Shown: positions 21,344 through 25,081 of the stretch, one piece after another
Layout: every line of letters starts with the position of its first letter
Numbering within the stretch: position 1 is the first letter of the stretch
Assembly (NCBI GenBank): GCA_016874055.1
Contig: VGVG01000016.1
Coordinates: 1 to 35,487 of the forward strand
Origin: Gammaproteobacteria bacterium
GTDB taxonomy: Bacteria; Pseudomonadota; Gammaproteobacteria; Steroidobacterales; Steroidobacteraceae
Length of the DNA stretch: 35,487 nucleotides
Direction of reading: 5' to 3'
The notes under the pieces: model-generated
Seen by the model: the letters and a program-made list of their open reading frames with translations, nothing else
What the model was told of the DNA's origin: nothing
Database searches by the model: none
Program-made: the position numbers and the translations under genes

Positions 21344-21485
21344 ATGCCGTTACTCCGTTTTGGAGATTCACTCGTGCCAAACCAGTAGGGAATATGCGCT
21401 AGAATTTAAAGTTGCGCGACGATCTAGACACTATGGGGCTACAATTACGCTCGCACTAAAATGAACGGTAATCCTTACAAATCCC

Positions 21486-21496
21486 GAGGTCACCTC
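21486..21496 (+). promoter_or_regulatory. Palindrome containing the porin-gene ribosome-binding site
   Basis: GAGGTCACCTC is a perfect inverted repeat around one central base, and its left arm GAGG is the Shine-Dalgarno sequence of the porin gene whose ATG is at 21500. It could fold as a small 4-bp stem hiding the site or serve as a protein-binding site; it may also be coincidence. Confidence 0.3.
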
Positions 21497-21499
21497 CCT

Positions 21500-22195
21500 A
21501 TGAAGACTACCCTAGTCCTTGTCCTACTTGCGCTCGGAGCCGCGGCGACCAACGCGCGGGCCGAGGTATCCTCGACTATCACCCTCGCGTCCGACTACGA
21601 CTTCCGTGGCATCTCTCAGACGGCGCGCGATCCAGCCCTGCAAGCGAGCCTGGACTGGTCGACCGAGTCCGGTTTCTACCTCGGAGCCTGGGCTAGTAAC
21701 GTCGACTACGGTGACGGCACAGAGTCTGAGTTAGAGTTAGACCTCCTCGGCGGCCTCTCGGGGAACTTCACTGACGATTTTGGCTACGATATTGGTCTTG
21801 CCCGATACAACTACTTTGATGACGGGGACGACATCGACTTTACCGAGTACTACGTTGGCCTCTCCTTCAAAGCAGCGTCGATGAAATATTGGTACGCATC
21901 CGATTTCAGTAACTCAGGCGATAGCGCGAACTATATCGAATTGAACGTAGAGCTTCCGCTGCCTAATGACTTCACCGCCTCGCTGCATGTGGGCCGCTCT
22001 AGCGGCGACCACTGGGGAGAGGACAAATACACCGACTACGCCATCGGCGTGAGCAAAACCGTCGGCAACTTCGATCTCGGTCTCAAGTGGGTCGACGGTA
22101 GCGACTACAGACCGGGTACCGATATCGGTGATGCCAACTCCTCCGAGAGCAAGGTTGTGCTCACCGTGGCGACCACGCTGCCCTGGGGGAAATGA
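21500..22195 (+). CDS. TorF-family outer-membrane beta-barrel protein (putative porin)
   Basis: A 231-residue exported protein. I choose ATG 21500, because it has GAGG 9 nt upstream and directly gives a signal peptide, MKTTLVLVLLALGAAATNARA, cleaved before EVSS. The mature start TITLASDYDFRGISQTARDPAL and GFYLGAWASNVDYG match the proteobacterial family TIGR02001 (TorF). The rest is acidic and rich in Tyr, Gly and Asp with alternating strands such as LEVDLLGG-like LELDLLGGLSG and IELNVELPLP, ending in SKVVLTVATTLPW, typical of an outer-membrane barrel. Its solute is unknown. It stands alone, divergent from puuC, and is closed by a strong terminator at 22231-22265. Confidence 0.85.
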   Translation: MKTTLVLVLLALGAAATNARAEVSSTITLASDYDFRGISQTARDPALQASLDWSTESGFYLGAWASNVDYGDGTESELELDLLGGLSGNFTDDFGYDIGLARYNYFDDGDDIDFTEYYVGLSFKAASMKYWYASDFSNSGDSANYIELNVELPLPNDFTASLHVGRSSGDHWGEDKYTDYAIGVSKTVGNFDLGLKWVDGSDYRPGTDIGDANSSESKVVLTVATTLPWGK

Positions 22196-22298: not shown

Positions 22299-22844
22299 TC
22301 AGGTAAGTGCGCGACGGCGGAAACGCAATACTCGCTCAATGACTATTCCGCCGGCAACGTAGGTCGCCATCGTCATCAAATATCCCGGGTAGTAACCCGC
22401 CACGGTAGAGGCAAACTCCGACAGCGACAGCGCGGCAGGCGAAGGCGCCAGCCAGAACATGCCCAGATTGGCTAGAAAAAAGGTGACGACGGAACTACCC
22501 GTCACAGCAAGGGAGACACGACCATAACCGCGGTCCGATCCCCAGCGCCCCGCCAAAAATAGCGCGCCATAGGCCGGGATGAGAAAGAGGTATGCGATGC
22601 CGTAGCAGTTAGTGGGCGTCCCCAGCGCAAAGGCCGTCAGATCGACGATCCAACCCAGTACGAAGTACGCAGGAAAAAGTCGCAGATCACGTAACCAAAG
22701 CCCCGCAAGGAAGAATACGGCCCAAGACGCATCGGGGGGACCACCGTGCTCGCCGAAGTGGCCAAGTCGCGTAATCGCCAATACGGTCGCCAGCCCCAAA
22801 GCCAACCACCAGAACCCGCGAGGGGCTGACGTTATTTTATCCAT
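22299..22844 (-). CDS. btuM: BtuM-type cobalamin (vitamin B12) uptake membrane protein
   Basis: A 181-residue inner-membrane protein with about six hydrophobic helices, of the size of solitary ECF S-component-like transporters. A cysteine stands exactly at residue 80 in FALGTPTNCYGIAYLF, the position of the cobalt-ligating cysteine known from Thiobacillus denitrificans BtuM, which binds and decyanates cobalamin. A strong AGGAGG lies 10 nt before the ATG. The gene lies downstream of a cobalamin riboswitch on the same strand with only a small ORF between, which independently ties it to B12. No ECF ATPase or T component is in the window. I identify it as BtuM by motif, topology and regulation; the exact family match was not searched. 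Confidence 0.82.
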   Translation of the reverse strand: MDKITSAPRGFWWLALGLATVLAITRLGHFGEHGGPPDASWAVFFLAGLWLRDLRLFPAYFVLGWIVDLTAFALGTPTNCYGIAYLFLIPAYGALFLAGRWGSDRGYGRVSLAVTGSSVVTFFLANLGMFWLAPSPAALSLSEFASTVAGYYPGYLMTMATYVAGGIVIERVLRFRRRALT

Positions 22845-22872
22845 TATCTACTGACCTCCTGAATGACCGATC

Positions 22873-23133
22873 TCAATACGTCGCTTGTTGAGCAGTTTCA
22901 AAAAAATCTTCACCAAGAGCTGAGAGCAGCGGCGGCGTCTCGACTATAGAGCGTATTTGCCAGCCGAGCCTCGGCCTTGGAAGACAGGGTATAGCCTCAA
23001 GTTTTTGTAGCATGCGCGCGGCAGTGTTGACGTAGGACCGAGGCAGCACAGATTTTTCGACGGCATCGAGACCTACCGCAGCGGAAATCATAGAGGGCTG
23101 CGAGCAGGGCCTTGGGCGCCGGAAATTGAGCAC
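22873..23133 (-). CDS. Small ORF of unknown function between the riboswitch and btuM
   Basis: A GTG-started frame of 86 codons with AGGAG 9 nt upstream, ending 28 nt before the btuM ATG. I do not recognise the product. Its central and C-terminal part (GLDAVEKSVLPRSYVNTAAR, then RPRLGWQIRSIVETPPLL) looks protein-like. The first 15 residues are Arg/Pro/Ser-rich and look like a wrong frame. A competing ATG at 23137, 5 nt after the same AGGAG, opens another frame reading MGAQFPAPKALLAALYDF, which looks more natural but stops after 46 codons. The pattern suggests one gene with a frameshift near 23080-23100, either a real mutation, a recoding site or a sequencing error. No membrane segment or signal peptide is present. 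Confidence 0.45.
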   Translation of the reverse strand: MLNFRRPRPCSQPSMISAAVGLDAVEKSVLPRSYVNTAARMLQKLEAIPCLPRPRLGWQIRSIVETPPLLSALGEDFFETAQQATY

Positions 23134-23171
23134 CCATCGATACTCCTTCTCGCGCTCCCACCGAGCACGCT

Positions 23172-23395
23172 GTGGATATCCCGAGGCCGGTCTCCGGACT
23201 TACGAGCAGTCGCAGACTTCTGCGACCTGGATGATCACCTTCCCGATCCCACCCCTTCAGTGGGTACAGTGGCGGAAAATCATTCTGCCTCGCTTACCGT
23301 TGCGGGGGCAGTGCCGGTATTGCGCGCCGAGACGCCCTCACCGACTTCCCGTTTCACCTCCGATGCGACCATCGCGCCGCGGGCACCTCACGAAC
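23172..23395 (-). promoter_or_regulatory. Cobalamin (AdoCbl-class) riboswitch
   Basis: The minus strand carries the conserved elements in the right order: ACGGGAAGTCGGTG (23339-23352), GCCCCCGCAACGGTAAGC within 23291-23311, and the B12 box AAGTCCGGAGACCGGCC (23185-23201, consensus AAGCCAGGAGACCTGCC). The outer limits are estimates. A 6-bp stem GTGCTC/GAGCGC follows, just before the AAGGAG of the small ORF, and there is no U-run, so control at translation start is more likely than termination. High B12 should turn off the small ORF and btuM. Confidence 0.93.
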
Positions 23396-23436
23396 AAATA
23401 GGAGGCTACGCTCTGGCACCGAGCGGTGTCAATTGT

Positions 23437-25032
23437 TCAGGAGCTACAAGAGAGTGCGGAGCAGCCTGCACGATGCCGCGCCCACTCAGGTCGACGCGAT
23501 GCGTACGCGTCTCGGTTCAGCTGCCGCTCGTATGGACGACGTAACACGCTGAGTAGCTCAGCGAGCGGCTCGACATTACCCTCCGCTGCCGCATCGATAG
23601 CCAGTTGTGCCAAGTAATTGCGGGGTAGGTAGCACGGATTATTGGCGTTCATGTGTCGCTGGCGCTCGCTCGTGTCGAGGCCACTCGCTTCGCCTCGCTT
23701 TTGCCACCGTAAAAACCACGCCTGCCATCGCGCCCTGAGATCTGCCGGGAATCGGCTAGCGTCATAGAGAGCTGGCTCGACTACTTGCTCGATCAGCCGA
23801 TACTCCCGATCGACGATGTGCTCGCCCAGTGCACGGAAGAAGATCGGCATGTCAGTCTCTACCGCCGCCATCAAAGAAAAAAGCTCATCGACGAGCGCCG
23901 TGTCACCCTCACGCTCGATGCTGTCCAAGCCAATTTTGCCGGCGAGCATACCCTGCCACGTAACGCGGTAGGTATTGCGGTAAAGTTCGAGTCCGCGCTG
24001 CAAGACGGCGCAATCTTCGATGATCGGCATGAGCGCGCCAGCGAGCCTCGCCAAGTTCCAGAGACCGATTTGCGGCTGCTTGCCATAGCAATAACGGCGA
24101 CCCGCAGCGTCCGTAGTATTTGGGGTCCAATTCGGGTCGTAACCCTCGAGCCAGCCGTATGGACCGTAATCGAGCGTCAGTCCGACAATGGACATATTAT
24201 CGGTATTCATCACACCGTGGACGAATCCGACCCGCATCCAGTGAGCGATCATCACCGCCGTGCGTCGGCAAATCTCGGTAAACCAAGCTGCAGGGGTCGC
24301 TGGGTCTTTGATGTCAAAGTTTGAGTAATGCGCGCAGATGACGTGATCGACGAGACGCCGCAGGACGACGTGTTCTTTGCTCGCTGCGTGGATCTCAAAG
24401 TTTCCAAAGCGAATAAAAGTCGGTGCAACACGGCATACGATCGCTCCGGGCTCGGGCTTCGGGTGTCCGTCATAGAACATGTCTCGAACCACCTGCTCGC
24501 CCGTCGATACGAGCGCGAGTGCTCTCGTCGTCGGAACGCCAAGGTGGTGCATGGCCTCACTACAAAGAAATTCGCGCAGCGACGAGCGAAGTACGGCCCG
24601 ACCGTCCGCGAATCGCGAATAGGGCGTCGGCCCCGCTCCCTTCAGCTGTAGCTCCTGTCGCGAACCGTCGAGTGCGATGAGTTCACCAAGCGTGATGGCA
24701 CGTCCGTCGCCGAGTTGCCCCGCCCAGTTGCCAAACTGATATCCGCCATATCGTGCCGCGTACGGACACATACCCGGCGCCAAACCGTTTCCCGCGAGGA
24801 TATCCACAGCAGCACCCTTCGACGGTGGACGCTCGAGACCGAGGCGCTCGGCCAGATCCTCGGACCATGCGAGCAGGCTCGGTGCAACGACGGCAGTTGG
24901 CGCGACAACGGTGTATGCCGCACCGGATACCTGACGCGGTACATTTTCGGATTGGGGATCCGCCGGTAGCGCCTCAACCACAGTTGATTCGAACTGAGTC
25001 TCTTGAAGTGCGCGCCGTGCGGACGTCGTCAT
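23437..25032 (-). CDS. selO: SelO-family protein adenylyltransferase (YdiU/UPF0061)
   Basis: A pseudokinase-fold enzyme that transfers AMP to Ser, Thr or Tyr residues of proteins. From ATG 25032 the product has 531 residues. Family stretches are YGGYQFGNWAGQLGDGRAI, ELQLKGAGPTPYSRFADGRA (glycine loop and ATP lysine), SSLREFLCSEAMHHLGVPTT, RVAPTFIRFGNFE, and the metal/catalytic segment FVHGVMNTDNMSIVGLTLDYGPYG. It ends in SCSS, the conserved C-terminal CSS tail in which eukaryotic SelO has selenocysteine and which allows redox control. A GTG start at 25050 would add six residues. It ends about 40 nt before the riboswitch, divergent from the MOSC gene. Confidence 0.94.
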   Translation of the reverse strand: MTTSARRALQETQFESTVVEALPADPQSENVPRQVSGAAYTVVAPTAVVAPSLLAWSEDLAERLGLERPPSKGAAVDILAGNGLAPGMCPYAARYGGYQFGNWAGQLGDGRAITLGELIALDGSRQELQLKGAGPTPYSRFADGRAVLRSSLREFLCSEAMHHLGVPTTRALALVSTGEQVVRDMFYDGHPKPEPGAIVCRVAPTFIRFGNFEIHAASKEHVVLRRLVDHVICAHYSNFDIKDPATPAAWFTEICRRTAVMIAHWMRVGFVHGVMNTDNMSIVGLTLDYGPYGWLEGYDPNWTPNTTDAAGRRYCYGKQPQIGLWNLARLAGALMPIIEDCAVLQRGLELYRNTYRVTWQGMLAGKIGLDSIEREGDTALVDELFSLMAAVETDMPIFFRALGEHIVDREYRLIEQVVEPALYDASRFPADLRARWQAWFLRWQKRGEASGLDTSERQRHMNANNPCYLPRNYLAQLAIDAAAEGNVEPLAELLSVLRRPYERQLNRDAYASRRPEWARHRAGCSALSCSS

Positions 25033-25081
25033 CGACGAATTGTAGCCCACGACTCCACAGTTGCAGCGTTATCATGCGAGC

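Follow-up and report, generated by a model that had tools for sequence, protein, structure and literature searches.

Among the closest known counterparts of the locus described below is the cobalamin transporter BtuM of Thiobacillus denitrificans. According to the part of PMC6072759 available to us, the initial prediction of BtuM relied in part on its gene lying together with btuB, Cys80 of the T. denitrificans protein is the cobalt ligand, its change to Ser abolishes complementation, no EcfT homologue was found in the organism, and the cobalt-binding cysteine is described as invariably conserved. In Azotobacter chroococcum, as far as the available part of PMC4465626 describes it, a cobalamin riboswitch is followed by a cluster with btuB and an adjacent btuM, so the ancestral gene order of the locus considered here is already known.

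The locus lies in a stretch of 35,487 nucleotides (contig VGVG01000016.1 of assembly GCA_016874055.1, Steroidobacteraceae; hereafter the window), where a cobalamin riboswitch is followed by an open reading frame (ORF) of 86 codons and then by a gene of 181 codons (Table 1). The initial annotation had described these as a B12 scavenging unit spanning positions 22299-23395; all of the elements it named exist, all are on the minus strand, and the span covers them except that it falls 10 nt short of the 5' end of the riboswitch. With a probability of about 0.88, we interpret the locus as a riboswitch-btuB-btuM uptake operon in which the loss of some 1.6 kb from its interior, together with frameshifts, destroyed btuB, with BtuM left intact. 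A selO-like gene (23437-25050) lies 31 nt upstream of the riboswitch. Convergent with btuM lies a TorF/Gcw_chp putative porin gene (21461-22195, plus strand); nothing ties it to B12, and the two nearest relatives of the locus (L032 and L033) carry a comparable ORF at the corresponding position.

Table 1. Features of the locus, listed in the minus-strand direction with their positions in the window.
Feature	Position	Strand	Evidence
Cobalamin riboswitch aptamer (RF00174)	23168..23405	-	cmscan 83.9 bits, cut-off 31.5, full length
Hairpin of 7 pairs with GGUGG loop, between aptamer and old btuB ribosome site	23151..23169	-	forms in L032, in L033 and in the window
Old btuB ribosome-binding site AAGGAGT (23148-23142) and start ATG (23137-23135)	23135..23148	-	part of the 33 nt (aptamer end to ATG) with 97% identity to L032 and to L033
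btuB relic, 5' piece (mature N-terminal region)	22981..23038	-	nhmmer, btuB DNA profile 102-157, E 0.0035
btuB relic, 3' piece (C-terminal end)	22879..22971	-	nhmmer, model 1748-1848 of 1854, E 0.015
86-codon ORF, very probably open by chance over the relic; its stop is most likely that of the old btuB	22873..23133	-	
btuM's own ribosome-binding site AGGAGG	22855..22860	-	read from sequence
btuM, 181 codons, Cys80 present	22299..22844	-	phmmer, profile, dN/dS, AlphaFold2 model

The assignment of the 181-residue protein to BtuM is secure. In a phmmer search of the PDB it matches the solved BtuM (8c7p/8ovv) with E 2.2e-12 and with Cys80 aligned to Cys, and a 45-row profile (alignment A1, the window protein plus 44 of 80 named loci, which are the best 80 of 292 relatives) matches the same structures with E 5.7e-54. 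The second match in each search, a ribosomal protein at E 0.13 and RNase PH at E 0.59 respectively, was taken as chance. Because the protein has no Pfam match, comparison with solved structures was used instead; in NCBIfam it finds only an unrelated aminotransferase model at E 0.014, far below the cut-off. An AlphaFold2 model with a mean pLDDT of 89.6 compares to 8ovv with TM 0.80 and to 8c7p with TM 0.81 at about 30% identity, these entries (both entitled "Tagless BtuM", with hydroxy- and cyanocobalamin bound) being the sole structure matches with E up to 0.001; a search by those two identifiers found no paper on them. The predicted protein is helical, with six of its seven helical elements at least 12 residues long; a six-helix BtuM-type protein with a cysteine at residue 80 had been proposed. 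It is 78% and 75% identical to the BtuMs of L032 and L033, and the corresponding dN/dS values of 0.13 and 0.16 (Nei-Gojobori) are rough because dS is about 1. As to the proposed lack of a dedicated ECF module, the genome assembly (83.65% complete) contains no CbiQ/EcfT match and no FecCD-type permease match. Judging by its T. denitrificans homologue, BtuM most likely binds cobalamin via Cys80 and, like that protein, imports it through the inner membrane independently of an ECF module.

The riboswitch is equally clear: RF00174 is the sole Rfam match in the window at gathering thresholds, and the covariance model aligns from end to end (1-189 of 189, E 1.8e-19), far enough above the curated cut-off to bear out the element first recognized from conserved sequence blocks. 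The genome assembly (1.39 Mb, 29 contigs, 83.65% complete) holds no second RF00174 match. The aptamer is 82% identical to that of L033, and measured against L034 and L039 it is 3-4 points less similar than the L033 aptamer is, with a corresponding deficit of 4-5 points for btuM. The aptamer is thus not decaying faster than a working gene, which suggests, but does not prove, that the riboswitch is still under selection.

It is the 86-codon ORF, with its GTG start, for which our reading departs from the earlier one, according to which it encodes a real small protein working with BtuM as a partner, chaperone or leader. The open frame and its location between riboswitch and btuM speak for such a protein. 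In a window with 112 ORFs of at least 80 amino acids, an open frame of 86 codons is unremarkable. We searched both strands of the whole window by nhmmer with a DNA profile of btuB, made from 16 btuB genes of congeners; 17 such genes adjoin btuM, and that of G126 was left out as it does not belong to the named loci. The two best matches are the two relic pieces of Table 1, scoring 5.6 bits (5' piece) and 3.5 bits (3' piece), on the correct strand and in the correct order, separated by a gap in the profile that comprises positions 158-1747, about 1.6 kb; all further matches in the window score below -4 bits. Each piece is weak alone, the 3' piece falling below the HMMER inclusion line, but among 1000 dinucleotide shuffles of the region only 10 gave any match, the best of them scoring 1.7 bits, so that neither 3.5 nor 5.6 bits was attained by any shuffle, and a collinear pair never arose; the 3' piece of the real sequence scored 3.0 bits in that run. 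The DNA profile, being tolerant of frameshifts, detects the relic more clearly than a btuB protein profile, which gave only E 0.04 and 0.2 (counted over three targets) on the three frames of the region. The latter was made from 12 of the 16 genes, leaving out L033 and L050, whose frames are broken, and L035 and L051, which are short and at contig ends.

The frames and the codon usage of the ORF agree with this result. The old btuB frame, read from the ATG at 23137, stops after 46 codons, while the GTG of the ORF is situated four bases past that ATG in a different frame, and, to go by the junctions aligned with the relatives, its closing TGA most likely served btuB as stop codon. At -0.105, the ORF has a codon score lower than those of all 194 equal-length in-frame pieces of 20 window genes, which score somewhat high since they come from the same 20 ORFs, chosen as likely genes, on which the codon table was trained; for 970 out-of-frame pieces the mean is -0.111, and 384 of them score at least as high as the ORF. 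BtuM, which was outside the training set, scores 0.196. The ORF product matches no Pfam or NCBIfam family at E 0.1, and when it was compared by tblastn with 111 loci, nothing outside the window's own loci was better than E 0.09, a match that itself lies inside a relative's btuB. The weak tblastn pieces fall on the N-terminal end of the receptor at E 0.09-0.21 and on its C-terminal end at E 6-7. Neither an open frame for plug and beta-barrel nor a Pfam match is present that would make the ORF a BtuB in its own right.

Homology to both ends of btuB, mixed frames and out-of-frame codon usage together identify the ORF as a gene relic, most likely the decayed stump of a deleted gene for the outer-membrane B12 receptor BtuB, across whose ends the 86-codon frame would be open by chance. 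A small protein acting with BtuM is, on the same evidence, extremely unlikely, and a separate leader-peptide gene was likewise dropped as a reading of the ORF. What stands of the initial interpretation is therefore the riboswitch, the BtuM with its cysteine and the lack of a detected ECF module in a genome 83.65% complete, but not the extra small protein.

It is also important to consider whether the short btuB could be an assembly or sequencing error in a genome with an intact gene at this position. The assembly is of metagenome type, in 29 contigs, and the relic occurs in one genome only, both of which are consistent with an artefact. The leftover pieces are, however, themselves decayed: the 33 nt from the end of the aptamer to the old ATG are 97% identical between the window and each of L032 and L033 (94% between those two), but over the next 150 nt the window is only 56% identical to L032 and 52% to L033, whereas L032 and L033 are 83% identical to each other. 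A plain misjoin would leave well-kept coding ends and is disfavoured for this reason, and the frames are moreover out of register. We consider an error very unlikely, and chimeric assembly, dropped as the main reading, is kept as a minor rival.

The hairpin just before the old ribosome site has a z-score against shuffles of -3.5 in the window but of -1.4 in L033 and -0.8 in L032, which is not clearly better than shuffled sequence, so its support is conservation rather than energy. A hairpin of such a kind beside a ribosome site may take part in riboswitch control. With aptamer, hairpin, old ribosome site and old start codon all preserved, the RNA probably remains a B12 sensor that lowers btuM expression when B12 is plentiful, although the conserved 33 nt may partly reflect selection that acted before btuB was lost. 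Because btuM now has a ribosome site for itself, some 290 nt downstream of the former btuB start, this control probably acts via transcription or polarity and not by hiding the btuM ribosome site. No promoter-like site turned up when 22700-23600 was scanned, and the single terminator-like site is located inside btuM. One could also imagine a regulatory role for the relic, in which the old ribosome site and start serve, with the 46-codon frame, as a translated leader through which the decision of the riboswitch reaches btuM. In favour of this, the hairpin, the ribosome site and the ATG remain 97% identical in spite of the decay that follows them; against it, there is no terminator-like site between riboswitch and btuM (23137-22845) and the arrangement is seen in one genome only. 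We regard it as unlikely.

Loss of btuB from an existing operon is supported by the relatives. In L032 and L033 a receptor gene lies between the riboswitch region and btuM; that of L032 has 616 codons and TIGR01779 (TonB-dependent vitamin B12 receptor) as its best NCBIfam match, at 535 bits against a strict cut-off of 599.7, and that of L033 contains one frame break. Across 24 genomes of the genus, the window's own among them, btuB stands directly before btuM in 17 (in G065 and G155 with broken frames), and for these 17 the riboswitch is upstream on the same contig in 11, in 2 it shares a separate contig with the beginning of btuB, and in the other 4 btuB is at a contig end. The riboswitch directly precedes btuM in three genomes (G032, G049 and G138), btuM has no riboswitch nearby and btuB is elsewhere in two (G150 and G165), neither was found in one (G180, 77% complete), and the btuB relic is confined to the window's own. 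Strong TIGR01779 matches (E 4.5e-73 or better, none above the strict cut-off) are present in 21 of the 24 genomes, equivalent to 21 of the 23 congeners, with G032 and G180 offering nothing better than plug-region matches near 1e-29. In the genome of the window (83.65% complete), TIGR01779 has no match at 1e-20 and no strong BtuB is seen.

Several observations on these congeners deserve mention in their own right. The frame-split btuB genes (L033:1125-2973 in G065 and L050:1196-2903 in G155) may represent receptor decay under way, or sequencing errors. G032 (99% complete), with its riboswitch at C18:10718-10937 directly before btuM and a best TIGR01779 match of E 9.2e-29, is a second congener seemingly without BtuB. 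The genus also has B12 loci of another type (L181 in G049 and L182 in G165), in which a riboswitch and a 41-43% identical BtuB are followed by a CobT-type phosphoribosyltransferase, CobS and a histidine phosphatase. The records of L038 and L045 are titled Klebsiella pneumoniae, a label that looks wrong given that their BtuMs are 58-62% identical to the window's and that they match genomes of its genus.

The loss of the receptor raises the matter of how B12 enters the cell. MetH is present in the window's genome (83.65% complete), CobS has no match there, and the only MetE-family match, in a protein of 389 residues, extends over no more than profile positions 2-76 of 324, which falls short of a full MetE. 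From a genome of which about 16% is missing, it thus appears that the organism depends on ready-made cobalamin. The same genome has 13 Plug-domain matches, the best being 31% identical to the L032 BtuB over residues 32-204, so another receptor could serve; passage of the outer membrane may otherwise use a porin, or a btuB may lie elsewhere in the genome, in its unassembled part. A further-reaching view is that of a B12-dependent Gram-negative lineage without any BtuB but with riboswitch and BtuM retained, in which the dead gene's ribosome site and start form a leader passing the riboswitch decision to btuM and cobalamin enters by a non-BtuB route, which we hold to be unlikely.

The cysteine itself is not universal among the BtuM relatives examined. 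Among the best 80 of 292 BtuM relatives, the Cys80 position is Cys in 78 and Ala in 2, namely L041:3001-3546 (G032) and L043:3001-3546 (G138), neither of which has any other Cys. Their sister L038 (G049) retains the Cys, and dN/dS among the three BtuMs is 0.12-0.17. We found no report of exceptions to the BtuM cysteine among papers judged by title or the start of the abstract, and these natural Ala80 BtuMs could serve to test if BtuM can ever do without the cysteine.

The main explanation for the locus is an ordinary one, a decayed btuB within a known kind of operon, and recognizing it keeps a pseudogene stump from being mistaken for a BtuM partner protein. Of remaining interest are the cysteine-less BtuMs and the loss of a receptor with switch and BtuM kept, an instance from nature of a B12 operon whose outer-membrane receptor decayed and whose RNA switch and inner-membrane transporter stayed. 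Two questions become testable, how B12 enters without this BtuB and what becomes of riboswitch control after its direct target gene dies.

By titles and abstract openings, the literature contains no report known to us of a decayed btuB in a riboswitch-btuB-btuM operon, and comparison with known systems places the locus as follows. It shares with T. denitrificans BtuM (PMC6072759, in the part available; 8c7p, 8ovv) the fold, the aligned cysteine and, in a genome 83.65% complete, the lack of a detected EcfT-type protein, but its btuM sits behind a decayed btuB, and the homologue is known here from sequence and a structural model. The riboswitch-btuM loci of G032, G049 and G138 (L041, L038 and L043) likewise have no full btuB between riboswitch and btuM, but two of their three BtuMs are without the cysteine, and their 221-nt riboswitch-btuM stretches hold no convincing btuB relic (one match, E 4, in one of the three). 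The riboswitch-btuB-btuM operons of the same genus (L033, L034, L039, L044-L047, L049 and L050) and, from the available text of PMC4465626, the A. chroococcum cluster begin with the riboswitch and end with btuM as the window does, but the btuB that stands between them there is reduced in the window to its two ends.
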